From positions 43,165,835 through 43,229,834 of the forward strand of contig CP136066.1 in the NCBI GenBank assembly GCA_032622095.1: a stretch of DNA of 64,000 bases, written 5' to 3'. Shown here piece by piece: positions 37,441 through 60,961 of the stretch. A model generated the notes under the pieces. It was not told the DNA's origin. It made no database searches and saw only the letters and a list, made by a program, of their open reading frames with translations. The position numbers were made by a program, and so were the translations under genes. The DNA comes from Siphonodentalium dalli. Taxonomy: Eukaryota > Mollusca > Scaphopoda > Gadilida > Siphonodentaliidae. How positions within the stretch are numbered: the first letter of the stretch is position 1; every line of letters begins with the position of its first letter.

Positions 37441-37740
37441 AATGAACTGTAGAAAGAGAATAGAAATACTCAGATAATTAGTTTTTGACCATTATTACAA
37501 CTAGAAAACAAACACAACTAACACTAAATCATCAAATAAAGCAATAAATTGTCATTTTATGGCAGTACTAGGGGAGGCCAGCTCCAACTTAGGGCTGTGG
37601 CCTTCAGATATGACTTTGGCATATAAAACAGGTGTCCCCAAATAATTACTGGAAACTACACTGGCTGTTCCATCCGATTATAGTTCTGAATTCATCACAA
37701 TATACGAAAACTACTCAGAATAAACATTCAAATGCACCAC

Positions 37741-38230: not shown

Positions 38231-38794
38231 AAGAGACACTCGAGGATGATGTTTATGAGCAATGCGACTGATTTTGACCATCATTTTGTTCAAATTATAG
38301 GAGAACACACGAATAAATTCCAAGCTTCATTATAGTCTCGAATTTCACTTAAAATGACGCAACTGCACGTATTTACACAGCCCATGCTATTTCCTTTCCA
38401 AAAAGGTATGAAGAGTAATATAGGCGACATATGCAGTGCGACAGGGACAAAATACAGACACTACCACCGGACCGGTATACCTGTCTTAGTACGGGATATA
38501 GCAAAGGCCATCAAAGATAAATAAGTCAATTGTTTCCGGTTACGTGGCTAAAAAATTCCAGGTAGGTAGGTAGGAATTGTTTTTATTTTGCATTTAAAAA
38601 AAACTAATTTATTTTGAATTTCACGCTAAAATTATGGGTAATATTGACTGCAATATCCATGGGTGAAATAAAATGCTACCATTATGATTGCATCATTGAA
38701 ATTCCCTCCAAATAATATGTCCTGTGAGGAAATGTTTATCACAGTGAAGATTATTGAACAGCTTCACATAGAGTATGCAATTTATTGACAAGGC

Positions 38795-39394
38795 TTAAAG
38801 GGATACTGTACCCAAATGTTGTTGTTGGTTTCTATAGTCTCTGAGTCGGAGAATAAGGTAACAATTTTCCATTATTTGAAAGTCTATTGAGTACGAAGAA
38901 GTGTTACGGATGGCAAATTTACCAGAATGCAAAAATACAAATTGTTGTTGTCGAGTAATTTTTGTACAGTTTTCAACCAAATGTATCAAATAAAAGTTAT
39001 ATTATATATGCATACTAGTCCCATGTACTCATTTATGTTATTGTATCATCACTAGTCAGTGAGTGGCTTGAGTATTCTCCCCGTATCAGCATAATGTTTC
39101 AAACGATCGTGTGTGCAATGGGTTTACTAATCCAGTATCCCTCAATTATAATTTGATTACGTCTTGTACAAGGAAATTCGTATTTTAATTTACGCCATTT
39201 TATGGCTCCAGCCATAAATTCAATTTATATTAAATTATTAACTTTTAAATTATTAAATTTTAAGATAGCCTATTAACCTGAGCGTTTACAGAATACATCT
39301 TCGACTCAAATTACTTATGTTTCTATATATTATCGATAATAGATCGTTGTTATCACCGGAAATTTATTGCAAATGGCGTACAGTACCCCTTTAA
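38795..39394. mobile_element. TTAA-flanked MITE with AGGGATACTGTACCC ends
   Basis: The element opens TTAAAGGGATACTGTACCC and closes GTACAGTACCCCTTTAA, giving inverted repeats of about 17 bp and TTAA on both sides. The interior of about 560 bp is non-coding and AT-rich. A piggyBac-type non-autonomous element is the best reading. Confidence 0.75.
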
Positions 39395-39633
39395 AATGTA
39401 GACTTCTACCATACAAATCAAATTATGCATCAGTACATAACTGTTGCATTCTAAGGTAAATATATGTTGGAATAGTCAATACAAATGAGTCGCATCAGTT
39501 AACTTTTAAAAATTATTTTTCCAGGTATCACAAATTTTTCCAGGTAGGTAGGGTACTAGTAATAGGAAACAAAAACGTTATTTTGTTAGGCCTAAGTTTC
39601 GAACCAGTATACTCGTCTTACAGGTTGAAAGGG

Positions 39634-40025
39634 TTAAGTTTCCTCACTGTGTACATACAATTTATTGTTTTTTATGAAAAACTTAATCTGGTCCCAGGGT
39701 CGAGCACTAAGGACAGGAGCCTTCCTCATAGCCTCCAGACATTGAAATTTCCCTGGTAGGCTATTAGAAGTGAAATACTTTCCTAACTGCTGATGGATAG
39801 CAGCCTTTTCTTCATCTGTCCATTTTTTCCGGACGTTCGATTTTCTCCTTTTTGATTTTGGTTGTTCTGAGGAAGTGGCATGTGTGACATCTTTCGTCCT
39901 TTGTTTTGTAGAAGACGTATGTATTTCTTCTGATTGCACATGTATGTCTTGTATATCTTCTGATTGTTCTGCATCATCAAATTCTGTCAATTTATCAAAG
40001 AGGTAATTATACATTCTGATGACAA
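39634..40025 (-). CDS. C-terminal exon of the recombinase family protein
   Basis: The exon follows a GTGCGCAG acceptor in phase 1 and ends with TAA at 39636-39634. It encodes VIRMYNYLFDKL, a basic stretch (KSKRRKSNVRKKW) and a C-terminal domain WTDEEKAAIHQQLGKYF, then WDQIKFFIKN. This Myb/SANT-like W..EE..A.....G pattern is usual at the end of proteins in this recombinase family. The frame is intact. Confidence 0.7.
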
Positions 40026-41482
40026 CTGCGCACCCTGAATGCCCTCTAACAGAGAAATGTGCATTGATTGATCACTTTACTTACTTAACACATATCCACT
40101 GAGCTATAAAACAGCCAATGTCAAAAGCTTAGCTTGCAAGAAATTTGACCCAATGTCGGTCACAATGTTGTTTACTGCGCAATACTGATTAGGTTACATT
40201 GCAACATAATTGGGCTGAATATAGAAAATTTGTTGTGCCCATAAAAAGAACAGTCCAGAATCCTCTGGCGATATTTGGGCTATGCCCATCTGCTAGTGAA
40301 GAGTTTGATGCCAAGATATTTGAGATCGCGTACCAGCATGCAGTCCAAAAATGGATTCATTTAATACACACATGTGATATAAGCATGTGACAAACATGAC
40401 AGACAAAGGACAAACACTTCTTCATAATATAAGTATACTAGCTATGTGCCTGCTGACTCCGTTGTAGATTTCATGTCAAGGTCATATGATAGGGGCAGTA
40501 AGACTCCGTAAATATGGTACCCACTGTGAGATTACCCTGCATACAAAAAGTGAAGTCTATCCGAAATATTGTTCCCAAGATAAGGCTAAAGGTCATTGTG
40601 GGTACCTGTATGGAAGGATAGGGACAGACATGATGAGGTTACTGCCCACCCCAAAATACCCCTATATACCAAACTTAATCTCTATAGGCAATTTAGTTCC
40701 TGAGATAACAGTGTCACTTGGTCATACACCGTGTCTGTTTCAAGGTTACAGGAACATCGGAAGGGCAAATCATCTTGACAGCATTCCCAAAATACCCTTC
40801 CAGTCCCAAAATACTTTAGAAAGCAAATTTGTTTGATATAGGCCCAACAGTTTACGTGTGTACCTGATTAAGAGAAAGCATGTATCATATTCTGACCCAA
40901 GTTATAAATTTAAAGGGGTATATGTCAGAAACTATTAGAATTAATATTCTGAGAAATTCGTTTGCTGTTTTAATTAAGGTCTTCAAAATCTAGAAATAAT
41001 CCAGTAACAATTTAAACCAATATCTTTCAAGTGACTGTATAACTAAAGTTATTTATTATACGACAGTATTTCTCTCCCCGTATCTTGCTGAAATATGTTA
41101 TGATCTGAATTAAAAGATGTTCATTTAGTAACTAATTGAACCGTGTTATGAATATTCTTTTGTTATAGCAATCCGAGTTATTATTATTTGCTGATCGTCG
41201 AAGTCTCAAAATATCAATCGACCGTGGGAGAAAATTCTCATTTTTCATTGAACTTTTGGAAACTCTGAATGCCAGTAGACATATAATAAACGCTTTATCA
41301 ATACAGGGTAGTTATATGTATCACAGTATCATGTCTCGTTGAGGAGATCATATCACTGTATCAACCTCACTGCCAAAGGCAGCTCGTTTGATACAGATCT
41401 GACTTCAACTCGACTTGATATGGCAGACCATATCACTATACTGTACTGATAATGGGTATGTATAACAACTAAAGTTACTTAC
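40026..41482 (-). other. Intron before the C-terminal exon
   Basis: The intron is bounded by GTAAGT at 41482 and a GTGCGCAG acceptor at 40026. No domain or RNA gene was recognised in it. Confidence 0.6.
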
Positions 41483-44096
41483 CAACTTCTGAATCTGTAT
41501 CCATCTCTATTTCATCCAAAGATTTGCCCTGATACTTGTGCATGTTCCCCTTCTCTACCTCTAGAAGCAGTTTACTGACTTTACATAGTTGTAGAGTCTC
41601 TTCCGGTAGTCTGTAATATTCTCTGTGAGTGCGTATATATCGTGTCCCATAAAGTTAGCTAAAACATCCAACTCATTGTTCTTCAAATTCATTATCTGTG
41701 ATATAGTTGCCACATGTTTTCTCAATTGAGTTGATGTTAACAGTTCAGGCTTTGTAGCACCACATTCTTTTGACATTCTTCGTATAACGTCACTGCATCT
41801 GATTGGGGTCTCTGTACAACCTGCTCTAGCAAAGACATAAGGGTTGTCCTCCTTTATATTTCCTTACTTTCGACACTTTTCGTCACTGAGAATATCCATT
41901 TGCAGTCTTAGTTTTTTTGTGATTAGGACGGCTACGCGTCTCCCTTTTTTACCCCTCAATTCTACTCTGTCCATTGCCTCAGCAAGTTTTATTTCAAAAG
42001 AAGAGAGTGACTTTTTTATTTCACCCTGAAGTTCTGCTTTATTATTAATTCCAGACTTGTAAATATCAACAGGCAACAGCTCCACCTCACCTCCTCTTCT
42101 TCTGTTGAACAGGACAAGTTGCCCGAGAGTCACCTCTGCTAATGCCCGGAAGTTAATTTCATCGATATCTGAAGATAGATTTGCTGAATACTCAGAAGCC
42201 TTGGACTCCATGTATTTGTGTAATTTTCTCAGATCCTCTGTCAGTGGTACTCGTTTTGGATTGTTAAATTTTCTTCGACTCAGGGTTTCCCTTGCAGGGG
42301 CATTAACTTCATATTTCCAGTTACTTCCACAAAGTTCCATAAATGCAGCAGCATTATCTTTTTCTTCAACTTGGCCAGCGATGCTTGCTTTATCTTTCAC
42401 TATTTGACCACATTGAATTAATGCAGTTCCCAGTTTGACAGCCAAACTTGGAGTTTTGTAAGAAAGGTTTTCCTCATTAAAACATGCAGTGCTCTTCACT
42501 GCTTTGACAACATCCCAGAACACCTTGGGTTTGACGCAATCTGCCATGGTCTGAATATTCGTATTTATTTGCCTTATATTCAACAGGAATCTTGCAAGTT
42601 CTCTTATTTTATTTCTCACATATTGGTACTGTCTTTTATTTAATCCACACGACTTAAGAAGTCTTTGGCCGAAATCAACAATAACCGTATCATTTCTTGC
42701 TGCAAGCGACACTTCATCAACTGATAATTTGTCCAAGATATTTTCTCGAAAAGCAATTTCGGTGTTGTGTGATACTGGCAAAAGCGAACTACCTGCACGC
42801 TGATGGTAGGTTCTTCCCTCGTGTGTTTTCTGGACCATCTTGATGCAATTTTTTGAATGTCTCCACAATTCACTTTTTGAGAAGAAACCTCTGCAATGTT
42901 GACAAGGTAAATAATCCATCCACACATTTTTCCTTGAAGGCCGTCTGATAACACTTCCATCATTAGAATCGAGAACAATCATGTTATGCATGAAGTTTCC
43001 TCGGTTAAATAAATCCTGGAAAGCATCATTACATTCTTTACTGCCTTTCCTAAAATTTGTTGCAATGATAACATCTGATTCATTTTAGTGAATGGATTCC
43101 AAGTATCTTCTTAACTTCTTATACCCTTTCCGACAAAACGAACAATAATTTATTCTATTGTAGATTCTTTTTTCACCACATTTTTCAGTTGTATCAACTG
43201 CTATCAAACTATTAACGTCTTCTGAACAACAAGATGTGCTATCTGGCTCAGTTATGTCAGTAGCCTGTTCTGTACAGTATGTTGATGTGCTTTCTAGCAC
43301 CGAATGAGTAAGTATATTGTCAGTAGATTTGTACTCACTCATACATGTACTTGTGCTTATAGCTTCATTTTGGCACTTCATCAATTCAGGGAATGGATAG
43401 ATGTCTGAGAATTCATCCTCTGAACATGGCACCTTATCCTCATCATCTGAACTTTGTTCCCCACTTGGTTGATACTCAGAACCACTACTTGCCAATTCTT
43501 CCTCACTTGGTTGATACTCGGAACCACTACTTGCCAAATCTTCATCATCTGACAAACTGATGTCCGCAACCTGAAGGTTCTGAGAAGGTACTACATACTC
43601 AATGTTACAAGGAGGTTCCTTGTCCTCGATTTTCTGAGAAGGATCTGCAACCTGTATGTTCTGATCATGTTCCAAGTGAACAATGTTATGAGAAAGTTCA
43701 ACATTATGAACAGGCTCCAAGCAACCAATGTTCTGAGAAGGTTCTGCAACTTTTATGTTTAGAGAAGGCTCCGCATCCTTGATATTTTCAGAAGGCTTCA
43801 AATCGCCCATGCTTTTCTGAGGTTCTGCATACTTGACGTTCTGAGAAGGTTCTACACATTCTATGTTCTGCAACTTTTATGTTTAGAGAAGGCTCCGCAA
43901 CCTTGATATTTTCAGAAGGCTTCAAATCGCACATGCTTTTCTGAGGTTCTACATACTTGACGTTCTGAGAAGGTTCTACACATTCTATGTTCTGAGAAGG
44001 TTCTGCAACTTCTATGCTCTGTGAAGGTTCTGGGTAGTCGATGTTCCCCGAAGGCGCTCCATCATATTCTGATTTTTTCTTTTTTTTAACTGTGAC
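41483..44096 (-). pseudogene. Disabled large exon: acidic repeats, zinc-finger motifs, tyrosine recombinase
   Basis: The exon opens at a TTCCAG acceptor with VTVKKKKKSEYDG in the phase left by the SET exon. It has about ten EPSQNI-type repeats, an acidic region with two ASSGSEYQPS repeats, a C2H2-like motif (CSFCRKGYKKLRRY, first His replaced by Tyr) and a C2HC motif (CQHCRGFF...LWRHSKNC). The recombinase core has an Arg box (FNRRRGGEVELL near 42100), TQLRKHVAT near 41715, FMGHD near 41645 and the nucleophile Tyr in REYYRLPE near 41615. Lesions are TAA at 43085-43087, TAA at 41864-41866, an extra TA near 41634-41640 and a 124-bp duplication. Net length change of the two indels is 126 bp. Confidence 0.8.
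43741..43988. repeat. 124-bp tandem duplication in coding repeats
   Basis: The segments 43741-43864 and 43865-43988 are nearly identical, and the junction shows GTTCTG microhomology. Because 124 is not a multiple of three, the duplication shifts the reading frame of the surrounding exon. A few substitutions separate the copies, so it is not a very recent or assembly-only event. Confidence 0.85.
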
Positions 44097-44465
44097 CTGG
44101 AACAGAAATTATGAGAAATTAGTCAGTATTAGTGTCAACTCAAACATTTGGCTGTTTTCTTCATTTACTGCAATTAGTGTGGAAACAATATGTCAATTAT
44201 GATAAAGATACAAATAAAATTTGATGCTAAATTACCTCTTAATGATTTTGTTGAAAAAACTCCTTACAATGTTTTTAGTAAAATTGAATGTTCGGCGATA
44301 TAAAACACATGTTTATAATGGGTTTTTTCAATTACTTGAACATTCCACTAAAATTATTCAAAAATCTGGCAGACCGGGAATCTATACCCTCATTCTTGGA
44401 CCGAGGTATGAAAACTAAGATAAGAAATCTCTATCAATGTGAATCTGATCTTCCCCTATGTACAT

Positions 44466-45275
44466 TAGGGCTGCAACGATTCACCGCGGTTTCGGTGAAT
44501 CGCGATGTTTACCGGCGGTGCGATACGCGGTTCGTTTCGTAATTATTCCGGTACGTTTTCGATCCGCATTTTTGTCACCCAAGCTCTCTGAGAGGACACT
44601 TTTCATTGGCTGTAACCGCAAAGATTCCGTATTTTCCTTTTCTGTTAACCAATCAAAATCGTTCTTCCGCGAGGGTCAGTTGAATATATTTGACATTTAA
44701 AATCAAAACAAATTAACATGTCGGAAGTATCGCATGATAAAAGTTCTCAGCCAGTCGGAGACGGGCCTGGCGGGATAACTCGAAAAATTGTCGGGGCGCT
44801 GGCGAAGTTTATATCGCCGGTGTGGAAGCACTTTGGGTTTTGTGCGTTCAAGTTGAAAGTCTGATGCCCTAAAGCAGTTTGTTTTCAGTTAATTTTAATT
44901 TTCATTGGAACATAAATTAATTATCCTCAAACAGAAATCATGACAGACGCAAAAACTAAAGGTTACTCAGAAGGATATCTCAAAACATGTGCACCCTTCA
45001 GCACTTTTTTTGGTGAGAGTGATCCTTTGACCTTAGGAATCTTTGATTGCCAAATAACTGTACAGGGTGCCGAGATGGTATAACATCAAGTGTGGTCATA
45101 ATTAAAGTACATGGCTGAATAATAGTACACATAATGGCTATTAATGCAACAGAACAATCCAAAGTTGTAAACTGATCCAATTTTCAGTCTGCAATGTATC
45201 GCGATACGTATCGTATCGTTGCAAAAAATAGTGATACGTATCGAATCGCGAGGTGGGCGTATCGTTGCAGCCCTA
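44466..45275. mobile_element. Non-autonomous hAT transposon, 810 bp
   Basis: The ends are TAGGGCTGCAACGAT and ATCGTTGCAGCCCTA, a classic hAT inverted repeat. They are flanked by perfect 8-bp target duplications ATGTACAT at 44458-44465 and 45276-45283. It lies in the intron between the SET and recombinase exons. The interior keeps only the start of a transposase (44718-44864). Confidence 0.92.
44718..44864 (+). pseudogene. hAT transposase N-terminal remnant (BED finger start)
   Basis: The 48-codon frame begins MSEVSHDKSS and reaches ISPVWKHFGF, the opening of a BED zinc finger as found in ZBED-type hAT transposases. It stops at TGA straight afterwards. The finger cysteines and the catalytic domain are missing, so the element depended on an autonomous relative. 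Confidence 0.75.
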
Positions 45276-45299
45276 ATGTACATTGCGGTCAGGTGGAAG

Positions 45300-45440
45300 C
45301 TCGGATTAAGATCCTTAGTCCTCACAAGGCTACACAAAGAGAAATATCCTCATAATATATAAGGACACATGTTAGCACAGATCTATAGTCCTCACTAAGC
45401 TACACAAATAGAAATGTCCTCATAATATATGTGTGCATAA
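45300..45440. repeat. Short local duplication
   Basis: Two copies of about 75 bp share AGTCCTCAC, GCTACACAAA and ATCCTCATAATATAT-like blocks. No function is evident. Confidence 0.6.
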
Positions 45441-47163
45441 ACTACAAGGCATGTAGCATAATTATCATCAAAGATTATATTTTAAACTGTGAGTGTTTTA
45501 TGTCTAACATATGCTCATTATGCTGCAATACTTGAATGGACCAAAAGGGGTGACACAAAAAGATGGTGCTCATTATATACAATCATCTATTATAGACCTA
45601 CTATCAAATTTGTATTAATTTCTAATAAACTCCATGTTCCTGTAGTCCAAGACCATGAACATGTTCCCTGGGACCTTCACAGGGGACAGAAAATTACAGT
45701 TTTTGTTCTAAAGTCATAGAAATCATGCCTGGTCATCTCATTTTTGTAGTAATTTCAAAGTATTCCCAATCGATCATACAATACAACGTGCCCAAGACAA
45801 TACAATGTGCACTGACATGTTGCCACAATGAGACATAGTTACGTCAGGAGTCTTAATTCCTTGGACCAAAAACTGGTTGCATAAAACATTACATATTTTA
45901 TAGTGAGTTCAATAATATGCAATGACTGCTTTTTTGTGATTAGGTATTTATGATTTCTTCTCCAAGGGCAAAAAAATAAAATGTTGTGTTCAGGGTTTCC
46001 CGACCAACCTTAGTAAAAGTGTGCGACCATAAACTTTTTATTCAACTTTAAACAAAATTTTATTATCAATGTTTTTTATCTTTTTATCCAACGGAAGTCT
46101 GCGGATTCCATGAATTGAAATTTACCCATACGTCGCCCCTCCATTTATAACACACGCACCGGAAGATATCTACTTATGACGTATCTTTTCCGCTTTGTAT
46201 TAAGACACGAAGCCCAAACATGATTTCTGCGACTGAATTGCAGGTTTGTTTTGAATAGGTCCCCAAAACCCCTATAAACCATAATGAAAAATCCCATCTG
46301 CACCTATAGTGTGTGGTTGTCATAGCACTCGGAGGTTCCCAGCGGTAGCTTTATACCCGTATAAAACATAATGAACAATGCCATCTGCCCTTACTATAAT
46401 TTAAACAAATTTATCAAATAAATTCTCATCAATCGACTTGAAATTTCAACATTGAAATACTTCTAAAACACAAACAGCCAAATACCGAAATTTGTCAGTT
46501 AAAATGTCAAAAGAAAATCGCAGTCTGGCGTGTTTGTTTCCTTCGTTTTCGAGATAAAACCTTTACTATTTGGAAAATTCGGTACAGTCGGTACATGTCC
46601 TACTATGTAATTCATTCATATGAAACTACTGTTGTTGAATAAAATATGTAACAAAATTGTAAATTCTTCCGCATGAAATATAATGCTGCCAACAATCCAT
46701 CCCTCGAAAAACTAAGTAGGCAACCAGGAAATCAGCACCAGTTAATCGAGCATTCAGTTCTATCAAGTGTTGTTTTAATACCTGTTTATCGGTTGGTCTG
46801 TGCTGATCTGAATTATACCACCGAAAAAAAGAAGAGAAAAAGACCTACCTACCTGAAATTTTTGAGTGTATGTAACCCTAAACACAGGTATTATTTTTTT
46901 TGGCCCAATGAAAACATCCACAAGTAAATACCAAATAGTATGCATGTTGCTCTGCCTCCCTTCCTCAGACGTTGAGGTTGTTTGCCATGGATTATACCCG
47001 ACACCTATACTATGAGGTAGTGTAGTTTAATGGGGACTATAACCTCTCAAATATTTATTAATTTGTTTCCTCGTGAAATAAAGTAAAAGGATAATGTAAT
47101 GTTAAGTAATTTCAGCTGATGCTCACCACTACTGAATTTGGGAAAATTAAAAAGCTCACAAAC
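45441..47163 (-). other. Remaining intron between SET and recombinase exons
   Basis: No coding exon was recognised. A stretch near 46830-46910 resembles on the opposite strand the CCAGGTAGGTAGG segments near 38560 and 39540, so a small dispersed repeat is present. Confidence 0.5.
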
Positions 47164-47380
47164 CTGTAAGAGATCATCAGTCTCCCACGGTGGATGCTTG
47201 ATTCCATAATCATAGAGAAGTTCTTCTCCTGGGTTGATAGCTTTGATGGCATATAGGCAAAGGTATGGTACCCCATTGTGTTCTACTGCTTGCATTTTGC
47301 AATTTCGTAGATTTTTATTGTCATGGTTGACTAGACGACCCATCACGAAACCCTTAGTACACTCTTCCGTTGCATCAATG
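47164..47380 (-). CDS. SET domain exon 2 (KMT5A-like)
   Basis: This 217-nt exon (acceptor ATTTCAG, donor GTTTGT, phase 2 to phase 0) begins IDATEE and carries GRLVNHDNKNLRNC, GVPYLCLYAIKAI and NPGEELLYDYG. These are the catalytic NH and EELxYDYG motifs of SET methyltransferases. The family RLINHS motif has Asp in place of Ser. After PPW the exon ends without a stop, so the protein does not finish as KMT5A does, but continues or is extended. Confidence 0.85.
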
Positions 47381-47587
47381 CTGAAATTAAACATGACATA
47401 AGTCAAAGAATACATATATTTTGCATAAATCACTTTCAAAACATTTCAAAAATAAGAAATCTTATTTTATTAATTCCTATTTTTTTAATCTTATACATAA
47501 TACAGTCCAAAAATAAATGTGTAAATAACCTAAATATGATTCCACAAGGTAATTTCAACTTTTATGTATGTCCTTATTTAAATGTCC

Positions 47588-47819
47588 TTAACCCTTTGAG
47601 TGCCAGGGGCCGATCTCATCGGCCCTAAATCTACAAAATAAGTCTGTTAAAGAATATAAGAATAAATTATTAAAATTGTAAAAAAAAAAACATTGTTAGG
47701 CCAATGCATTCTCTTATATATGGGAGGCGACCTATGGTCGACTCGCATATATAAGAGAATACATTGGCACAGGGTATATGGGTTGATACAAAAATCGGAC
47801 CTGGCACTCAAAGGGTTAA
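47588..47819. mobile_element. piggyBac-like MITE, 232 bp
   Basis: The ends TTAACCCTTTGAGTGCC and GGCACTCAAAGGGTTAA are inverted. They include TTAA on both sides and the CCCTTTG start usual for piggyBac-type MITEs. A second internal palindrome pairs TTCTCTTATATATG with CATATATAAGAGAA. Confidence 0.88.
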
Positions 47820-48939
47820 TTAACGCTTGAAAACAGAAAAACTAACATAAAAGTTTTTTTTAATATCTAATTCCCCCCGAATGAATAATTCAACAATGTT
47901 GGCAATTTAAATGCAATTACTTTATGACTATAATTAGTAATACAGTTTACAAAATAAAGACTACAAGCTAAAATCTCATTTAATCTTTTTGCGATGTCTG
48001 ATCAAGCTATTGAAAACACAGAGGTTGGTCATGGATGGTCATCTCAACATTCTCATTTTAATGCGTTTCATCTGAAGTTCAGAATTAAATTTATTCGGGC
48101 ACAATCACACAATAATTTTATTTGTGTTAACATTTGATGAGGTATAAAGGGAACATCGTGTTGTGTGTTTGGTGGTGGGTAATTAAAATAACTTACAACA
48201 AACTTGCGTTTATTGCCAAACACCAAATATGTAGACTGAGTCACTTTAAAGAGCTAGTAGGCTTTAGCTACATGATAAAATATTCTCTTGGTAAAAAATG
48301 TAAAAGTCTACAGAACACATATATTCATACAAAATAAGGATTATTATTATTGAATTAGACTGAAAGATTCCAAATTGAGTCTACAAGCTTGATCGAGTCT
48401 TAGGATAGAATCTAAGCTAGAAGTTTAATTGGGCCCTATTATTAATTAAAAATTTTTTAAGTCGGAACAGGGACAACAACTCGTGCAAAAATCATAATAA
48501 ATGAACCACAGCATGACTTTACATCAGAATATTGTTCATTCATAAAACAAGTTTGTGTTGATTGATCAATCCTATCGAAGTTTCAATTGAATCCAACAAA
48601 GCATGGAGCAGAGAAGATAAGTGTCAAATATTATAATCGTCATGTACGACCTTGATCTTCAACGAGACACAATTTTTTTTCCGCTACACATCATCTCCTC
48701 ATGGGGAACAATGATAACAAGTTTCTTTCAACTGAAGCATGTGTTAGTTATGGAGCAGAGACAAAGGCCTCATGTGAACAACCATAGCAAGTTTCAAAGA
48801 AATCCGAAGCATTTAGGCATTATGAAGTGGACATGAAAATCTGTATAGACAGAAAGTCAGAACACTACATGCCCCCCACCCCCCCCCCCCCGAAAAAAAA
48901 ATTCAGGGTCATAAATCAAAGGATATCATATTAACTTAC
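47820..48939 (-). other. Intron within the SET domain
   Basis: This is AT-rich with a C-tract at 48873-48891 followed by an A-tract. No coding exon was recognised. Confidence 0.6.
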
Positions 48940-49099
48940 CAATAACGACATTCCTTGAAACAAAAAAAATATCTAAATGAATTGGCTGATTGATCATGAT
49001 CCTCTCTTGCATCTCCTTCTGCACCTGTCAATAATTCACCGCCATAAACAAGGAGGAAGTCTCCTGTCTCAAATGACTGCTTTGCCCTTATTCCTCGCC
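48940..49099 (-). CDS. SET domain exon 1 (KMT5A-like)
   Basis: This 160-nt exon has acceptor TTACAG, donor GTAAGT and phase 1 to phase 2. It encodes RGIRAKQSFETGDFLLVYGGELL and then RYFFCFKECRYC (residues split to the next exon). The GRG-x5-F-x2-GDF-x3-Y-x-GE pattern is the N-terminal SET motif. YC before IDAT in the following exon matches the KMT5A/SETD8 subclass, which monomethylates histone H4 lysine 20. Confidence 0.85.
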
Positions 49100-50251
49100 C
49101 TGTAATAAAGTAATAATGTAAGTTGATTATCTGTTTCTCAAATACACTTTTTAAAACCTGACAGGCAGGTTTTTATATTTCCTTTTTATGCTGTTTTATG
49201 ACTTAAATTTACTGGCAGGCGGTCGTTTAATTCTAAATTTTTTTAAACAAAAATATATTTTTTTAGATACTTGGCAAGGTCCACATCCCTTCTATTGGAA
49301 AGGATCCATTTTCCTTCCAATTGGGAAATTTTGTAGCATAATGATACAAATTGGGGTGTTTTTATATGCCTTTCAAACTGGTAAATGTTCATATTAGTCC
49401 AAAAAGTTAATGATTTCTTTCACGGGCGTTGGTGCACAGGATGTCAACCTCAACACTAAATCTTTTTATTTTACTTTCAAAAATTTATATCTTCCAAATT
49501 TCAGATTGACAATGCAATCAACAAAATTAAGTGACAGTTCACTATTTTGAAAGTAATGCTAGCTGCAAGGTATTTTTCTATACCTATTGTTTTTCAGTTA
49601 TACAAGGGTAACAACCGATGGGTAACAATCAATGACCAGAAAATACATATAGGAGCAACAGATAGTTTGTAAACATGCACCATTCATGCCCAGATCTATG
49701 GGCGCACCTGCATGGAGGACTCATGTCTTGGAACATGTGCTCTTTATGACAAAAATCAGGACGCAGACTAGAATGGACAAACTGTTACTGTTGTGGTGTT
49801 CGAGACTAGACCCAATGGCAATGGGATCATTAATCATATCTATTTCAAAATGTGGTTTTGTGATATAGATGTTGTTGAAAAATTAAGTTTTTGTTGGCTT
49901 CAACTTATTCAGACAGACTATGGTTAAACGTTTTGAGCCCGGTCACATGCACTTATTAAAAAGTTTCTATTCAAAAGCAGATCAAATAAATGCAGTTATT
50001 ATGGATGTTGGTATAAATGCAATATCGAACATAGTTGGACAGTCCACTTGATATACCTTTGACTCTGCCCTTGCAAATAACCATAAAAACGATTCATACT
50101 TAATAATTCTTGGGACAATATCAAACTGAAAGAGTGAATGTAATTAGAGTATAGCGAAGGAAAGAATGAACAATATGAGTTCATGTTGTATAGGTCTCGA
50201 GAAAATAATAATACCCTCCCTCACTGAAAAACAAATGTAAAAAGAACTTGC
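49100..50251 (-). other. GC-AG intron of the SET region
   Basis: The intron starts GCAAGT on the minus strand at 50251 and ends TTACAG at 49100. No coding or RNA feature was recognised. Confidence 0.6.
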
Positions 50252-50344
50252 CTTTTGGGGGAATTTCATCTATGACAAATCCAGCTGGGTCAGTATTGTT
50301 TATCAAGCAGTTAATAGCTGCATTGATTGGCTTTATCCTCTTCC
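50252..50344 (-). CDS. Pre-SET exon with GC donor
   Basis: This 93-nt phase 1-1 exon encodes KRIKPINAAINC and VIDEIPPKG, leading into the SET motif GRG of the next exon. Its donor is AAAAG followed by GCAAGT, a perfect-consensus GC-AG intron. The acceptor is TTTCCAG. In KMT5A the SET domain likewise begins just before KGRG. Confidence 0.75.
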
Positions 50345-50816
50345 CTGGAAATAATGTATAAATTCAAGCACATAAAAATAGTAGAAACTGCAGATCTGAA
50401 GATGTTTAGAGTTGATAGTTCACAAGATAATTTTTCCAAATTTCTGTTTATTAAAGTCTCAAGCCACCTCCCATCCATGGTTTTGAGAAAGGATTATTGC
50501 AATTCTTCGCAAATTTGTTGTTACATCAGTCTAAAGACACTACATCAATTTCACCTATAGAAATAAATGTTTTAATATTTCCTGATATTATTAGTTGTGG
50601 TAGTTTAGTTGGCAGATATAATGTCATATTGGGTGATGTGTGAACAATGTTGGTGCTTGAGAGTGTATGTTTTCACAAATAATGCTATTTTGCTGAATCT
50701 CGAAATCTGTTACGTCAAACACAATAATTGTAACTGGTCAAATTTCCATTGGTATTAAATAAATACAATAATTCAATATGTTTTTATATGTTTAGGTTAT
50801 ATATTCCGAGACTCAC

Positions 50817-51030
50817 TTCTGGTTCTGCAACTCATGTCTCTCTGGGGCTCTTTCATTGTATTATCTTCATGTGATGATGATGTGTAATGGGGTGAGCCCT
50901 CTCCATATTCAAATCTGAAGTCCCTGCTACCAACTGAAATCACACTTTTATGGAGAACACAGGCAAATCCTAGATATGTAACTGGTAGGTTGTTCAAACA
51001 GGTAGGCTGGCTGATATTCACAAGAAAGAC
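50817..51030 (-). CDS. FHA domain exon 3
   Basis: This 214-nt exon has a TTTACAG acceptor, GTGAGT donor and phase 0 to phase 1. It encodes VFLVNISQPTCLNNLPV, then VLHKSVISVGSRDFRFEYG, completing the FHA beta-sandwich. The RDFRFEY end parallels the RSFRYE end of the Ki-67 FHA. A polar tail (SPHYTSSSHED) follows before the SET segment. Confidence 0.8.
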
Positions 51031-51219
51031 CTGTAAATTATACAAATATATCAGCTATTCACTAGTGTTGCCATAATTTTTTATTCTCAGAATCAATAAA
51101 TCGTTCATCATAATAAAATGTACCTGAGTGGACCACATATTTGATGAAGAAATGGTACAGAATTTCAGATAATTCTGAAGTTTGTTCACTGAGGGACAAA
51201 TACTAGCTAAATAAAATAA

Positions 51220-52590
51220 TGTCTATCGAATCCAGAAGACAAGATTTATTGACAAGAAGATAACTAACTCTCTCATACCTAACAGGGTCTATTATCAACT
51301 GGTACATAAAGTAAAAGTTGAGTGTGCGGGGTATGTGGTTTGGGGGGCTAACCACAGGATGGTCGAATAGTTGAGTGTGACAACAGATGAAGTGCTAAAA
51401 TAGCTTGACTGTGAGCGGATTATACTGAGCATGCATCAACATTAAGAGGCCGGGCAAAATGGCACATATGTGATTGTGTTCGTTTTCGTTGCGTTGGGAG
51501 GACGCATATGTACTTGCACACCAACATTGCGAGGACAATTTTATTTATGAGGACATTGTGTGTACATCGGATGTATATAGAATGAGACGTAGGGATCGAA
51601 ATAACCAGTAACAAATCGCAATTTGCGACACATAAAGGCACTATTACGATAAGATTACACTCATTCTATCAAATTTAGCGACATTATTTGTTAACATCCC
51701 TGTCCGTTCCCGTTCAATCACTAAAATGCATTAGGACTCTCCCATTCTATGGAACCTATCTTTTTTATTTCAAAACTACATTGGAGGAATTATTTACAAG
51801 AGGAGAGTGTAAACTTATTAGGAAAATCATTCAATATAATATAGTCCAACACTCTTGTTCATACGAAAGTATATAGCAATTTGCAATTCATTTTTCAAAA
51901 CTTATTTTGATCCAAGATGAGACGTCTATCGTATCCAGAAGACAATATTTATTGACAAGAAGATAACATTATCAACTGGTACATAAAGTAAAAGTTGAGT
52001 GTGACAACATATGAAGTGCTAAAATAACTAGACTGTGAGCGGATTATACTGTGCATGCATCAACATTAAGAGGCCAGGCAAAATGGCACATATGTGATTG
52101 TGTTCGTTTTCGGTACTTGCACACCAACATTGAGAGGACAAATTTATTTATGAGGACATTGTGTGTACATTGGATGTCTGTAGAATGAATGAGACGTAGG
52201 GATTGAAATAACTGGTAACGAATCGCAATTTGCGATAAATAAAGGCACTATTACGATAAGATTACACTCATTCTATCACAGTTATGTGGTCAACATCTCC
52301 GTCCGTTCCCGTTCAAACACTAAAATGCATTAGGACTCTCCCATTCTATAAAACCTATCTTCTTTATTTCAAATCTGCATTGGAGGAATTATTTACCAGA
52401 GGGGAGTGTAAATCCTCACACTCGTCACACAAACACTTGTGAATACATCCAGTGATATTTCTAATAACCAACTTATTAGAAAAATCATTCAATATAATAT
52501 AGTCCAACACTCATGTTCATGTGAAAGTATATAGAAATTCGCTATTCATTTTTCAAAACTTATTTTGATCCAAGATGAGAGGTCTATGAG
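51220..52590. repeat. Diverged tandem duplication of about 0.7 kb
   Basis: Blocks CAGAAGACAA, GACAAGAAGATAAC, GAGCGGATTATACTG, GGCACATATGTGATTGTG, CATTAGGACTCTCCCATTCTAT and CTTATTTTGATCCAAGATGAGA appear in the same order twice, near 51235-51920 and 51935-52585. It lies in an intron of the FHA segment. No open frame is conserved between the copies. Confidence 0.85.
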
Positions 52591-54513
52591 GACTTTCATC
52601 AAAATATATCCACAGATTGGACTGTTTGCGTGACATTTTTGTTTAATGTATGAAGGGGTATGGACCAATTAAAGTAGTTCGTTCAGATTCACGGGTGAGA
52701 ATGAGAGACAAACCATATTCCTGACCGATAAATCAACCAGTAGCCATAGGAATGAAATCACGGCTTTATTCTGTCGGCAATCAGCGATGAACATAAAAAA
52801 TAGAAGCCTTTCAAATTCTTTGAAGATGACCGACATATGTCGACGTTCATGAATTTGATGGCCAAATTCGTTCAAGGTCGATTTACATCGCTTTCGAATC
52901 ACTTGCCTTCGATAGGGACATGGTCATTAGGTTCTATTATCGGGTGGTCGGCGGGATACACTGAAGCCTTCGTGCCAATTATACCATGGTGAGTGGTCTA
53001 ATCAGGGTTCAAACAGGTTCCCAAAGTCTAAATTTAAGCTCTAAAGTTCAAGGACTTTATGGGCTTTTTCAAGGACCTTCCCATTACTGTACAATGCCAC
53101 ATGTATGGATATGGGAGGGGTATTACTCATGCTCCACGAAGGCACAGAATAAATTCAATGTGGATCACTGAATTGTTACTATCCATGTTTCACTTCAGTT
53201 CGAATTCGCGCCTTGCGCTTGCCTAATTTTGATTCAGAATACGCATTTTATTGCGTGCCTAAAACAAACAATTAATGCTGTGTGCGATGTTGACAATACA
53301 ATGCTTCTCTTGTTCCAAATAAGTATAAATGGGAGATCACCCAATAGCAAGAACCAAACACATATGAACTGGGTTAAATTCAATAGCTGCACCGATTCTT
53401 TGAAGTGCAAACATGAGTGACGTCAGTGACCACGTGTTTCAGAGCAGCGGCGTTGAGTCTTTGATGTTCCAACACCGATCACTACCTCGGATCGTCGAGC
53501 ATTGTCTCAAAATGAAAACTGTGTCATAATGTTATGATGGCAAGACGTGTCTTGGTTGATTGACAGGCGGGATTGCATTGGACAACCTTGCAAGTTGTAC
53601 TTTTTGCCCACATGCCGGGGTTACTAGGCACATTCCACGTACGCGGTTTATCGTGTTTGTGAAACAAACATTCAATTCCATGACCATAACAATTCCATGA
53701 CCCATACACCACTTACATAGTTCCAAACTAGTAGACAGACGATCACTCAAGAGCGGTAACAAAATTCCATGCGCGCAGGCAGCAAATTAACTGGTATCGC
53801 ATCGCAATTTGCTACCCATTTTGGATAATAGCTATGCAATTTGGTATGAATTTTATATGATTTTAGAACAATGCTTTCTAATCATGCCAATGTGAGGTTA
53901 TATGCTAATAACAATTTCAAAAGTAATTTGCTCCCTGCATGCGCGGTGTTAAATTCTACAGCGACATCATGTCTTTGAAGTCGTGTTGACATCTTTCGGT
54001 TATCGCATGTATTCAGATAGAGTTCAGAGCAGCATCGAGGCTTTGAGTTGTAAACACCAATGAGTTCCGACTTTCGTAAATCAGTATCCCGATATATTTT
54101 ACAGCGATATGTCATGACGTAAGTGCTGCGTGCTTTGGTTGACAAGATCGTCATGTGTCATTCCAAGATCTTCCGCGCTGTATTGAACTAATTTATTAAT
54201 TGTTCTGGAAAAAGTGGATTGATTTTGTACTCTGCATGTATTGTGATTTAATTCTTCGTGTAAAATGGAATGAATTACATACAAAAATCACAGCATATTA
54301 TTCAGGAGAGCGATTTGCCCTCCTAAGTAATCTGTCAGGCAAGCGATTTTCTGCCACCCTGGATTTTATATAAACACCAGGCCTGGACAATGGAAACAGA
54401 TATAATTTTGTTTGGCCCAGTTCAGTTTAATAACATAATACCCCACACTGTTAATTTTTCAGAACGTATTATCAACTGGTCCTATTTCTCCACTTCCATA
54501 TATTTAAACATAC
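52591..54513 (-). other. Intron sequence without recognised features
   Basis: Open frames are short and lack flanking splice signals or recognisable domains. No RNA gene was seen. Confidence 0.5.
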
Positions 54514-54595
54514 CTCACCATCTTTATTAACCTCAAGTTGACAGTGTCTTTCATCAACAGTGGGCAGTCCAATGCAAATGTCACAACTTTTATTC
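54514..54595 (-). CDS. FHA domain exon 2
   Basis: This 82-nt exon has a TTTTTCAG acceptor and GTATGT donor, entering in phase 2 and leaving in phase 0. It encodes NKSCDICIGLPTVDERHCQ and on to KDGE. With the GR from exon 1 this gives the FHA core GR-x3-CDI...HC, where the phosphothreonine-binding Ser of typical FHA domains is replaced (VDERH). FHA domains bind phosphothreonine peptides. Confidence 0.8.
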
Positions 54596-55079
54596 CTGAA
54601 AAAAAAGCCACACATCATGGATGGATATTATATTTTACATATATCTGGGTATGGAGGAGCTCTATTAACAAATACATTAAGTGCACATGACATTTACATC
54701 AGAGATGACAGGAGATTTATTTAAATAGGTAAAGAAAGAATATGATAAGATTTTATTGTAAACCTAGTTCAGCCAGACCGCTGATCAGATTGCGGTTGTT
54801 AGCGATGGCATATGGCTGATCTATTGTAAATCATGGAACAATCAAACAATAGAAAATGTGACTTGATTTCTTTCACAGATGACATGTACAGCATGCTTTC
54901 CAAAAACAAGTACATTGAAACCTCCGCTCATAAGCATTTTAAAATGCCATGGTTGAGACTCTTTCTCTGAACGTCAACTAAATAGCAAGACAAGTTCATC
55001 TTTTGAACTTGAGTATTATAAATCAACACATCTTCCTTTCCAGCTTCCGTAAAAGTTATATTTGTTGGGCTAGATTGTC

Positions 55080-56110
55080 TTGTTTCAATATTAATAACAT
55101 AAATTTAGTGAAGCAAAGAGTAAATTCTAAAATGGCCACCGGCGCCTTGTTTTTTCTGCCGAATGACACCAAAATGACTCGTTCCCATCTACATGTCAAC
55201 ACCCATGACAAATTTCATGAAGATCAAAAAACAGACCAGTCTATAACCCATGATAATGGATTTTGTAAAAATATTTAGTCATACAAAGAGTAAAATCCAA
55301 AATGGCCATTTGTGGCCATATTTTTTTGCCAAATGACCCCAAAATGACTCGTTCCCATCAAGAGGTCACCCTGATGATCCATATGAAGTTTGGTGATGAT
55401 CGAATCAGGGATGTGGTCTGTAGGATGTGTCAAAGGATTTAGTGATGCAAAGAATAAAATCCAAGATGTTTTTTTGGCCGATTGATCCTAAAATGTCTCG
55501 TTCCCATCTACATTTAAATGTCAACATTCATGACAAATTTTATAATGATCATACTTACAGTATGGCCTGTAGCCCGCGCCAATGGATTCAAATTTGAAAT
55601 CCAAGATGGCCACCAGCGGCCATGTTTTTTGGCCGAATTACCCCAAAATGATTCATGCCCAACTAGGTGCCACCTCAATGATGAATATGAAGTTTTGTGA
55701 TGATCGGATCAGGGTTGTGGTCTGTAGGGTGTGTGAAAGTATTGAGTGATGCAAAGAGTAAAATCCAAGATGGCTGACAGTGGCCATGTTTTTTGGCTAA
55801 ATGGCCCCAAAGTGACTCGTTCCCATCTACATGTCAATTTCAACATTCATGAAAAATTTCATAAAGGGATCCGACCAAGATACGACCTGTAGCCCGCGCG
55901 AAAGCATTTAGTGATGCAAAGAGTAAAATCCAAGATGGCTGACAGCGGTCATGTTTTTTGGCCAAATGACTCCAAAATGACTCGTTCCTATCTACATGTC
56001 AATTTCAACATTCATGACAAATTTCATGAAGAATAGACCAAAGATACGACCTGTAGCCCGCTCCAAAAGAAATTGTTGACGGACACACGGACGATGGACA
56101 CCAACCCATG
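55080..56110. repeat. Tandem array of about 145-190-bp repeats
   Basis: At least five imperfect copies share GCAAAGAGTAAAATCCAA, ATGGCC(A/G), GTTTTTTGGCC, CAAAATGACTCGTTCC, ATTTCAT and GTAGCCCGC. The array ends with GACGGACACACGGACGATGG and ATGGCAATAGCTCA, an end typical of a repeat class in marine invertebrate genomes. It lies in the first FHA intron. Confidence 0.85.
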
Positions 56111-56531
56111 GCAATAGCTCAAACTTAATGTGCAAAGTAAGTTGAGCTAAAAACAAAGTTACATGTATATTGATACATTAAACAGAGGCGAGTGTGTATT
56201 TAATGTATGTGATATCCATGCACTGACGAAGGTATCATGATTTCTTGCATTTCATGTCAAAAAATATATTCAGCTATGTTATATACACCTCTTTTTGGCG
56301 ACGTATACATTGTGTAAGACAGCTTTGAAATTGGGCTGATTTAATCGGTCCCAAATCTCCCCCTTACCCATCCACCTTTCCAGTTTATTTCCATAAATTC
56401 ATCAAAAGTGGTGTTACAATGAATTTCTGTTATTCCGTAAAAGTAGTCTCTTTATACTAGTATTCCCAAATAGCATGAAACACTAAAGAATTAAAAAATA
56501 CATGGCTTTCTAAAACCACTAATTTTAATAC

Positions 56532-56620
56532 CTTCCAAACAAACAGACTGTCGACACTAATGGGAAATGAGCACCATCTTCACCACCATGTTTGATAACA
56601 ACAATCGTTCCATATAACAT
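56532..56620 (-). CDS. FHA domain exon 1 with start codon
   Basis: ATG at 56620-56618 is preceded by an in-frame TAG. The exon encodes MLYGTIVVIKHGGEDG, then HFPLVSTVCLFG, ending in phase 2 before GTATTA. The start position and the HFPL...CLFGR motif match the N-terminus of the cell-cycle protein Ki-67, which begins with its FHA domain in the same way. Any 5' untranslated exon was not identified. Confidence 0.75.
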
Positions 56621-56925
56621 CTAACACAGTCTGAATAATAAATTAATAAATAAATAAATGATTTGAAAGTTAAATTTAATTTAATTTTTCCAAGACTTCT
56701 GAAGCAACAAAACAATATTAGTATTGCACTCACATGTCGGCTACCGGAAACAGAATCTAAATTGGACACTATATATATTATTGGCTGTTGTAATCCAATG
56801 TAATTGAATGACAAACTGAGTTCACTGTGAATTAACGAAAACAGTGCTATTTTTATATTATGCCCTATGAGGACCTATGAAATGTCCTCATTTAAAACCA
56901 AATTGTCCTCACATAGTTGGTGTGC

Positions 56926-57031
56926 AACACAGGTCCTCAGAAAAAAAATTGACCCCACCCCCAATAGTACTTAATCCTACAGGATTAAGTACTATTGGGG
57001 TGGGGTCAATTTTTGTTCTGGGGACCTGTGG
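56926..57031. repeat. 106-bp near-perfect hairpin
   Basis: TTGACCCCACCCCCAATAGT pairs with ACTATTGGGGTGGGGTCAA, and the arms continue outward through CACAGGTCC and GGACCTGTG. The centre is ACTTAATCCTACAGGATTAAGT with only three unpaired bases. It lies about 300 bp upstream of the FHA start codon. Confidence 0.88.
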
Positions 57032-58973
57032 TGTGCAACAGTGCAAACTACTTTAAAGATGTACACGTATGTCCTCTCAATGCTAAATACAAACAGTACA
57101 TTACTGAGATCATGCACATAAGTCAGAAGTTTTTACGTATAAGTCTGTATTTAGTTCTTCTGTAGGGACTCATAACAAATTTAAAATTTTAGATTTTCTT
57201 TGATAAGTCTAGCATTTCAGCTAGCAAGCAACATACAAAACGTAAAACATCAATTGACCATTGATCTCAGATTGAAATCAGAGCATTCTATTCACCTAAA
57301 CTGTCTAAGCTAGTTGATTAATGAAAGTGTCAATAACACTGAAGCTCAACTTGTGTAGCAAATTTTTGGAGAGGTCTTTGTGCATGATTTGTTGACTGTT
57401 ATCTGAATGTAGAGGAATATATTGAAGCAGATGACCGACACTAAATTGATGCAATAGGCTATGTTTTCTGGGCTGCTAATCGGAATTGGAAAACATCATC
57501 AGGAATATGAGCTAGGTCCTAGAATTGTTCAACTGTGCATTATATAAGCTTTTCGCAGTTTATACGATTACCAAGTGGTTTTCATGGAACTTGTCCACAT
57601 GTACTTCCTAGCGGCAGCACTGAATGTTTATAGTCTGAGTCTTTGCATACTGTTACCGCTAATTCTGACTTGGCTAACAGTCTTGAGTGCAGAGTTCATG
57701 TTTGCAGGTCGCAGAAACCGAATTGATCTTAAAACTTCTCTCTCTGGTGACAAATAAAATAAATGAAGCTTATTGTTAGTACGTTCATATGAACACAATG
57801 TTCCACCGATAGTAATTTCACCTAGACATACCTGAATGCGCAAGTTCGTATGAAAATGTAAACAAAATAGGAGTAATCATGTTTTAGGCCCAACAAGTAT
57901 AGCTGAAATCTTCTGGGGAATAAACATATCTTTTCGCTGTGGATTTGGTTTGACCGGAAACTGAAGTTATGAGACCTCGGTACATAACCTTCAAAAAAGT
58001 GTGCAGACTCGTCTGCTCCAACTGCCAATCATCCAAACGTCAATTTATCCAGCAGTGTTAATTTGGATTGATCTGCATATACCTTGATGCTCTAGACATA
58101 CTAGTAACATTTTCAAACAGTGACACTGTTAAACCATATATTTTTCACCCAAGCAATAGGAGAGATACTACTCAATGCATATCAAAAAGTATATTCTTTA
58201 TGGCATGAACACCAGAAGGTTTCGCAAATAATGGGAAAAACCATGTGAAGAATAGGGTGCATCAAAGGAGTATACATAGAATTTGTCATCCTTCATAAGA
58301 CTGAATATTTTAAGGTTCCTATAACTATGAGTCTATGACAGTATAAAAACGCTTGTGAATAAAATAGTATAAATACATGCAGATATATATTTAAACTCAG
58401 GCTATGTATTTATACTACGATCGCCATTGTAAAAGCATTGCACGCATTATGTGACTCACTGTTTGTTATTTTCCAATAACAACAGAGTCGCAGGTCATTC
58501 ATTATAGCCAAAACAGGTGCGTTATTCTCACCTACAATGGCTTCCGTGACTTGCGTTATTAAATTGGGCGTATTTGAACTTATTCTGGGATTCCCACAAT
58601 CAGCTGCTTCTTTGCGACTATAAGGGGAGACAATACACAGTTTATAAATCCACATAATTCAGTGTTCGAGTTTTACATTTTTAATTGTTTTATTCCATGA
58701 ATAATTGTTATTTATTCAAATAATTCACATCGAAATAATAGAACTTCTTCCTGTGACTCAGTCGCCGACATATACTCGGCAGTTTTTGTTTGGGTTCAAG
58801 TTGGTTTGCAGGTGTGGCGAGATCATTTTCACTGGGTGTGTTTTAGCATCATTCTGTATATCTTGTCTCATTTAAGTGTGTAAATATAAGTTAAAGTATG
58901 AATCTACGTAGTCCAAAATTGACTATACATTGAAATGTATCTTTAGTATCCCGTAGATTTTCGACTAGAATCT

Positions 58974-59088
58974 ACGATGTTCATGCGATTTGACACTAGA
59001 AAAAAAAATCAACAAATTCTTTTTGAACTCCTTCGGGGTTCATAGAATTTGTTGATTTTTCTCTTGTGTCAAATCGCATGAACATCGT
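58974..59088. repeat. 115-bp hairpin
   Basis: ACGATGTTCATGCGATTTG pairs with CAAATCGCATGAACATCGT, and the arms continue to a TCCTTCGGGG-like loop. A few mismatches occur in the middle of the arms. Confidence 0.88.
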
Positions 59089-59147
59089 GAATATTGGGCT
59101 GACTTTTTGTAAGTATCGTATCCCAAACCTCCCCGATCGATGCAGTC

Positions 59148-59721
59148 CAGGGTCCGCGCTGGACCGAAATTTACTTTTGCCAAATAATTTGCCAAATGAA
59201 AATATTTTTTGCCAAATTCTATTAGAAGTTGCCAAATGTTATCCCTGATAGTATCATTTTTTTGCAACATTGATTTAGTTTTTTTTCGACGCTCGTTTGA
59301 ATGACATTTGATACCGATAGGAAAGCAGTTAGTTAATTATATTCGCATCTATATTGTGGTTTATCATTTAATAATAGATCAATCACCGAACAATAAAATG
59401 TTAGAAGGGTTGCTTCATCAGAAGGGAACATCACAAGATGATTAGCTGTGTAAACCTACCATCACATTAAATATTGATAATCCCTCCACCCATCGATAAT
59501 AATGTTACCAGATAAACTGCATATTAATGGAGGTGTTAAGGTTTCCGAAAGCATATAAAACACCACTAATATAATGTTATTGTAATAGTTTCCTAAAATG
59601 AATGGTATTGATTGATTGATTAAAGTGACTTGCCAAAATTTTTGCCAAATGAAATAATTTTTTACCAAATGTGAATTATTTCTGCCATTGGCAAAATTGG
59701 CAAGTGGCAGCGCGAACCCTG
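59148..59721. mobile_element. hAT-like MITE, 574 bp
   Basis: The ends CAGGGTCCGCGCTG and CAGCGCGAACCCTG form a 14-bp inverted repeat with one mismatch. Perfect 8-bp duplications ATGCAGTC flank it at 59140-59147 and 59722-59729. The sub-terminal regions are rich in TTGCCAAAT motifs on both sides. No transposase frame remains. Confidence 0.9.
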
Positions 59722-59855
59722 ATGCAGTCCCATCCTATAACAATTTCATTTGCAATATACATCAGAGGATTTTCGCCGAAAATGGTGTTTTAAAGAATAC
59801 ATGTTATTCAGTAAAACTGACTTTTACTGAGTAACACACTTTAGAGTTATCGACA

Positions 59856-59972
59856 CAGCCCTCGAAATTAGGATTTTTCATCTACGGCATTTTCTACGGC
59901 AGTAATGTACAAAGATACAAAATGTATGATTCATTTCGGCAAATTCTATGGCATTGCCGATTTCGAGGGCTG
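59856..59972. mobile_element. Small inverted-repeat element, 117 bp
   Basis: The ends CAGCCCTCGAAAT and ATTTCGAGGGCTG are perfect inverted repeats flanked by TCGACA on both sides. The flanks give a 6-bp duplication, shorter than the 8 bp of hAT. The family is therefore uncertain. Confidence 0.75.
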
Positions 59973-60188
59973 TCGACAATTGTTGACTTCAACATTGGGA
60001 GTCACCGCTGACGGGCTTAATCAAGTTAATGTAATAGTACTAATACAATGCCCAACTAAGAACATATCTTCATTTGCGACTAATATTAATAATAAAATAT
60101 GATCATGTACGTAAACGTAATTTGCGCCCGCTTGTTACATGGGATTATCGGATGAATTGTTATCTTTATAGAAGGATTTGATAAACCC

Positions 60189-60961
60189 TAAGGGTGGATA
60201 CACACGTGCATGTAATCTCTGTAATTATCGTGTATTTGGCGTTTTACATGGATCATACAGACGATGTAATAGGTGTCCACTGACAACCCAATCATTGCCT
60301 ACGTGTTGAACGCACTGAGTTCTAGTTCCAATTAAGTCGGAATGTAGATAAGCCGTTATCTTGGACCGAGTCGACAGGCCACTTAAAATAATTGATCGTG
60401 GGATAACACATATGGTAGACTTTCTATTTAAATAATTACCAGTCGTCTCTATTGGACTGGTGGATCACGATTTCCCCGACGCATGCAGGGGCTATATATG
60501 ACCCCGAAAGCAACCAGGCGGGGGTGGCTAACCCTATTTAAGTAAAACATATCATATTGTACCTTCTTGCCCAGATTATTCCGACCGATACATTCAACTA
60601 AGTCCCTTAGCGATTTGAAGCTTTCGAGACCCCACCCAAACAAGCATCATGGTTGAAAATGTTTTACATCAAGCCTGTATATACCATACGTATGGATTCT
60701 GGTGGTCGTGCATTAATAAAATGCCAGTTATCACACAGACTTGACTAATTTCGGCATCCGTGAGAGAAGACATGTTTTGGACTGGCCTTAAATGAACTGA
60801 AAGAAGACAATTTGACTTCGCTTAGCACTGCTCACTTGTCTGGCCTGTTAACAATGAACCGCTCGCACGCAGGTGATTATTGTTGTCAATTATTGGTGTG
60901 GCCATGTAAAATACATGTATTTTACATACATAAATTACATGCATGTGTGCATCCACCCTAA
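60189..60961. mobile_element. PIF/Harbinger-like non-autonomous element
   Basis: GGGTGGATACACACGTGCAT at 60192 is inverted as ATGCATGTGTGCATCCACCC ending at 60958. Flanking TAA at 60189-60191 and 60959-60961 gives the 3-bp TWA duplication typical of PIF/Harbinger. The interior of about 720 bp has no recognised transposase. Confidence 0.75.

Follow-up and report, generated by a model that had tools for sequence, protein, structure and literature searches.

A decayed FHA-SET-recombinase locus of Siphonodentalium dalli as a probable member of a multi-copy family of Crypton-like units with chromatin domains

A 64,000-nucleotide stretch of the genome of the scaphopod mollusc Siphonodentalium dalli (contig CP136066.1 of assembly GCA_032622095.1; this whole stretch is called the window below) carries, one after another on its minus strand, exons for an FHA domain, a SET domain and a protein that resembles Crypton-type tyrosine recombinases (YR). 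The original prediction, made from the DNA letters, was that these exons form one fusion gene, which raises the question of whether the locus encodes a single chimeric protein or is something else. We compared the window with the rest of the host genome (2.2 Gb in nine contigs; locations are written as contig and position, so that the window is C6:43165835-43229834). The locus is one of many copies in a probably mobile family, and the idea of a single fusion gene has to be given up; the account that we favour, at somewhat better than even chances and by sequence comparison, makes it a copy that has decayed and may have been rearranged, in a family whose units are large, contain introns, are Crypton-like and include chromatin domains.

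Exons of the window

The FHA, SET and recombinase exons follow in this order, and their splice sites are usable, with GC in place of GT at one donor. FHA exon 1 (56532..56620) starts with an ATG at 56620 that is in frame and immediately preceded by TAG, ends in phase 2, and is 60% identical over 25 amino acids to Ki-67. FHA exon 2 (54514..54595) matches Pfam FHA at 1.1e-5, and FHA exon 3 (50817..51030), with a phase 1 donor, matches Ki-67 and has near-identical copies on C2 and C3. A linker, or pre-SET, exon (50252..50344) has the GC donor, aligns with KMT5A and, by eye, is similar to an exon ahead of SET at C8:182.68M; it is followed by the SET N-terminal exon (48940..49099; Pfam SET 0.0062 alone, KMT5A match once joined) and by the SET C-terminal exon (47164..47380; donor phase 0, Pfam SET 1.8e-10, KMT5A match).

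Joined from 56620 to 47164, these six exons make an 855-nt, stop-free FHA-SET frame of 285 amino acids. All six junctions of the locus are in phase (2, 0, 1, 1, 2, 0), including the two joints proposed originally, 50817/50344 and 47164/44096, which are plausible because six exons with usable splice sites join in phase and the seventh starts in phase 0. Among FHA proteins with solved structure, Ki-67 is closest to the first three exons (6e-16; the next is at 0.0016), and among solved SET proteins KMT5A is closest to the last three (3.3e-23, with a Toxoplasma SET at 2.2e-15 and KMT2A at 5.7e-10). A Ki-67-like FHA with its own ATG, a KMT5A-like SET, and their common orientation and matching splice phase are thus borne out. 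The introns hold repeats of their own, namely a direct duplication of about 0.6 kb ahead of FHA exon 3 (51221-52587) and tandem repeats of about 165 bp after FHA exon 1 (55084-56066).

The seventh exon (41478..44096, minus strand), labelled from motifs and profile comparison, has a repeat-rich acidic start, two zinc-finger-like motifs and a putative tyrosine-recombinase core. Entered at 44096 in phase 0, its frame runs for 102 amino acids and then stops, because the exon shifts frame within the repeat stretch; further on there are two in-frame TAA stops, and the catalytic (tyrosine) end lies in another frame. Beyond it, a frame for a basic C-terminal tail (39637..40071, minus strand; ..KKWTDEEKAAIHQQLG..) resembles, by eye, the tail of an intact relative, L020. 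With two in-frame stops and two frameshifts in the recombinase exon, the window copy codes no three-domain protein, contrary to the predicted joining of FHA, SET and recombinase in one chain; the largest product it could give has about 387 amino acids, with FHA-SET followed by the 102-residue repeat tail.

A sister copy at C3:52.08M differs from the window by 42 mismatches in 3636 alignment columns, and has none of the window's four recombinase lesions but frame-breaking gaps of its own. In the recombinase frame, 22 of 1982 sites differ between the two (6, 7 and 9 by codon position; 6 synonymous, 16 nonsynonymous), the spread to be expected without constraint. Each of three copy comparisons of the SET exons gives one synonymous change and nothing else, those of the linker exon give 0, 0, 1 and 1 changes with a 10-base gap in one copy, and in those of FHA exon 3 the protein differs at 2, 3 and 3 amino acids, with a gap of 6 bases; these counts are too few for a selection argument.

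Database searches put no family name to the recombinase: Pfam scans of the recombinase proteins (E up to 1) returned no recombinase or transposase family, nor DUF3504, known from domesticated genes, nor DUF3435, and a PDB sequence search gave no match. In the open relative L015, a single frame contains an R-x-G-E box, an LRKH box and GHD followed by a tyrosine, in which both arginines, the GHD histidine and the tyrosine are candidates for the catalytic R-H-R-Y roles of tyrosine recombinases, with a threonine in place of the usual first histidine. When a profile of seven recombinase relatives was compared with one of ten phage integrases by HHalign in both directions, P was 5.8e-5 (probability 66%) one way and 0.0015 (17%) the other, with reversed controls at 0.015 and 0.085, and in the alignment as printed the two sides line up at the first arginine box, at the LR box and at GHD. 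The exon with zinc-finger motifs expected from 44096 is in place, though not open, and its identity depends on motifs and on a profile that matches weakly; tyrosine recombinase is a probable label for the core protein, and "Crypton-like" is used by analogy.

Copies of the unit and linkage of its domains

Parts of the locus recur in the genome. The region 38357..64000, which runs past the right end of the window, is represented by overlapping pieces at C3:52.08M, C3:29.52M, C2:76.78-76.80M and C6:90.0M. Most of these are 94-99% identical to it (one piece 89%); the copies differ in what they have deleted, and one inverted duplication is present. Among relatives with open recombinase exons, the pair at C4:2.42M and C6:99.6M has 4 differing sites in 797 codons, and a second pair, at C3:139.4M and C6:179.0M, about 6 in 610; such near-identity indicates very recent interchromosomal copying by an intron-keeping agent.

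We pooled 113 recombinase matches, including ten added from a later search, into 68 loci, 115 SET matches into 82 loci, and 31 stronger FHA matches, obtained with three joined-exon queries, into 13 loci. The genome searches score the best candidates only, so that all these counts are lower bounds; second SET exons of dispersed repeats and weak matches, such as SET and FHA at C9:74.18M, were left out of the pooled SET and FHA counts. SET or FHA within 25 kb of a recombinase locus was then counted by side and strand and compared with the chance expectation. SET lies upstream on the same strand at 12 of the 68 recombinase loci (0.03 expected), downstream on the same strand at one, and on the opposite strand at none (0.03 expected for each class), and FHA lies upstream on the same strand at five (0.005 expected). 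Linkage of both domains to the recombinase is far above chance genome-wide. One linked lineage, at C6:71.3M, consists of a dispersed SET repeat and a recombinase array, and that pairing may be due to chance.

Introns within SET occupy matching positions and phases in the window and at C8:17.2M, C6:99.6M and C8:182.68M, and so do introns within FHA in the window and at C8:17.2M and C6:99.6M; therefore the domains are of common ancestry, with their order reshuffled. The shared SET intron phase is not seen in the dispersed SET repeat L053. At three loci, which represent two lineages (C8:17.2M, C6:99.6M and C4:2.43M), SET, FHA exons 1-3 and the recombinase are found in one direction. Phases between domains give a mixed picture: they fit from SET to FHA exon 1 at C8:17.2M (1/1) and from FHA exon 3 to the recombinase at C6:99.6M (1/1), but not at two other joints of these loci, named below. 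Splicing of the SET, FHA and recombinase exons into one protein is likely.

Several other arrangements were seen. Two uninterrupted frames, L005 (C5:11.71M, 1136 amino acids) and L006 (C5:0.454M, 1156 amino acids), end in SET (Pfam 4e-14 and 8e-14), which in L005 is nearest SETD8/KMT5A (1.4e-9); their upstream part is recombinase-like by eye, with weak profile matches to the recombinase family (0.12) and to integrases (0.043; reversed control 0.61), and they are possibly a second, recombinase-SET architecture. No relatives of this C5 SET frame or of the recombinase alignment were found in viral contigs. SET is also borne by the dispersed repeat represented by L053 (C1:70.90M) and L054 (C1:226.34M), present in at least 17 places on 8 of the 9 contigs; these two copies are 99.7% identical over 7.9 kb, with the likeness continuing beyond, and their SET lacks the YDY end. 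Nine SET matches stand in tandem at C5:4050794-4088129 (spacing about 4.5-4.7 kb), and 18 recombinase matches form an array at C9:153781685-153818804 (spacing about 2.2 kb). Two sets of three FHA exons, at C2:22.900-22.907M and C2:23.061-23.068M, are 53-68% identical to those of the window, have no SET or recombinase match nearby in the genome-wide searches, and are possible host Ki-67-like genes. In the window itself, 31614-37451 is a common repeat, parts of which match 20 other places over at least 2.6 kb at 90-95% identity and which includes Pro/Gly-rich frames at about 31.8-32.5 kb; 60096-61787 is a repeat of 1.7 kb that has over 30 further copies (about 91-95%), and Rfam gave no RNA match in the window.

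Explanations of the locus

The unit that we envisage would have as its core the exon for the Crypton-like tyrosine recombinase with zinc-finger motifs. Ahead of it on the same strand would lie SET exons of KMT5A type, accompanied in some lineages by FHA exons of Ki-67 type, and intact members would probably splice all of these into one SET(-FHA)-YR protein. The unit presumably moves as DNA, driven by the recombinase, because introns are kept. In favour of this account are the upstream linkage of SET and FHA to the recombinase, KMT5A and Ki-67 as their closest solved relatives, the matching introns within the domains, the near-identical open recombinase frames, the three loci with all domains in one direction, and the profile match to phage integrases. 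Several observations weigh against it. Such linkage is absent from 56 of the 68 recombinase loci and from 8 of the 13 FHA loci, and by manual grouping the 12 SET-linked recombinase loci amount to about seven lineages, not 12 independent cases. Two between-domain phases do not fit directly: at C8:17.2M the step from FHA exon 3 to the recombinase is 0/1, and so is, at C6:99.6M, the step from SET to FHA exon 1; therefore extra exons or separate genes are possible. HHalign probabilities of the recombinase-integrase match are just 17% and 66%. Finally, no element ends, no target-site duplications and no empty sites came to light, the ends having been sought in a single attempt that found a break on one side of one copy pair, adjoining another repeat.

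The order of the domains speaks for a different history, in which the FHA exons come from a SET-FHA-YR unit that lost its YR, the SET-YR part comes from a second unit that lost its FHA, and the window order is a deletion product that encodes no fusion. The FHA-SET-recombinase order of the original prediction is present in the window, but outside the window's lineage all loci with three clear domains are ordered SET-FHA-recombinase; SET stands ahead of FHA at six loci, and the three loci where FHA precedes SET on one strand all belong to the window's lineage. The series at C9:74.18M, made up of one FHA exon, a truncated recombinase, a SET exon and another recombinase, shows how adjacent units can give rise to FHA ahead of SET. 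Set against such a mosaic is the fit of the window's own exons, with FHA exon 3 and the linker exon just 470 bp apart and in fitting phases, and with 6/6 junctions fitting. We regard the mosaic as unlikely, though it is the strongest competitor; within the family proposed here, the FHA-before-SET order of the window's lineage may be a later rearrangement.

Segmental duplication, in which SET and FHA genes upstream of a YR gene were copied together by the host, with separate transcripts and no YR-driven movement, would account for copies with differing internal deletions and one inverted duplication, and is in line with the single fruitless attempt at element ends and with the several between-domain misfits of phase. 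It sits poorly with a linkage that recurs in about seven lineages, is strand-specific and runs in one direction, and we consider it improbable.

A single working FHA-SET-recombinase host gene, for which exon phases and order speak, is rejected for the window copy on account of the stops and frameshifts that break its recombinase exon; the multi-copy family and the even spread of changes between the window and its C3 sister also count against it, leaving it very little credit. Least credible of all is a chance neighbourhood of unrelated exons, which long introns and many repeats in a 2.2-Gb genome might allow and which we reject in view of the genome-wide linkage (12 loci with SET and 5 with FHA, the chance values being 0.03 and 0.005), unless all linked loci stem from one duplication.

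Comparison with known systems and possible role

KMT5A (SETD8) and Ki-67 are host proteins that are not known to carry a recombinase. They are the closest solved relatives of the unit's SET and FHA domains, but differ in that key motif residues are changed in several family members. The NH pair of SET is ND in five of the six recombinase-linked or dispersed family SETs compared, the window being the exception, with NH and YDY kept; in each of the three FHAs spanning the SxxH motif, another residue stands in place of its serine, and GR is kept in the window FHA. Because of these replacements, H4K20 methylation and phosphothreonine reading by the unit's SET and FHA are not safe to assume, and both domains may serve as binding modules.

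The recombinase would cut and insert the unit, with its zinc fingers and tail binding DNA, judging from what is known of such families; FHA would dock the complex on a phosphorylated chromatin protein, and the SET module would bind or methylate nucleosomes. Together, FHA and SET might bring the recombinase to chromatin of the mitotic or the H4K20 type, or alter the chromatin of the insertion site.

In the open-licence literature we found no description of a unit that joins SET or FHA domains to a Crypton-like recombinase, and no co-occurrence of Crypton with KMT5A, of Crypton with FHA domain, of KMT5A with tyrosine recombinase, or of Ki-67 with FHA domain, SET domain and transposase. Crypton, SET domain and tyrosine recombinase do occur together in two papers, to judge by their titles reviews of the silencing of elements. 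Animal Cryptons (Kojima and Jurka 2011, PMC3212892) have a tyrosine recombinase as core protein, as the present unit probably does, and share with it dispersed copies, many of them decayed; according to that paper they have no C-terminal domain after the YR, and "SET domain" and "FHA" do not occur in its main text. The present unit is set apart from them, as they are described, by its SET and FHA exons, long introns and C-terminal tail; L020 runs about 110 amino acids past the YR in one frame, unlike the animal Cryptons of that paper. SETMAR (PMC9062482) shares a SET domain placed N-terminal to a transposon-derived enzyme, but there the enzyme is a mariner transposase in a single primate gene, whereas here it is a recombinase in a repeated family and SET is nearest KMT5A. 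Fungal Starship elements (PMC12134995) are large as well, and combine a tyrosine recombinase, in the present unit a probable one, with further coding sequence; unlike the scanned recombinase proteins, whose Pfam matches do not include it, the Starship captain has DUF3435 (PF11917).

Tentatively, and with less than even confidence, we put forward an element class, probably animal, whose members are large tyrosine-recombinase units active until recently. Their recombinase protein would carry its own Ki-67-type FHA reader and KMT5A-type SET nucleosome-binding or methylating module, reshuffled between lineages, so that the element sets both the time of its integration (mitosis) and the place (chromatin state). 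Chromodomains are known to steer insertion by some retrotransposon integrases, and FHA and SET joined to a recombinase might let the unit choose its insertion place in chromatin. Near-identical copies with open recombinase frames make this idea testable. If true, a recombinase element with phospho-reader and lysine-methyltransferase folds would be a new coupling of DNA insertion to chromatin state and the cell cycle, and such elements would be a source of ready-made chromatin regulators for their hosts.

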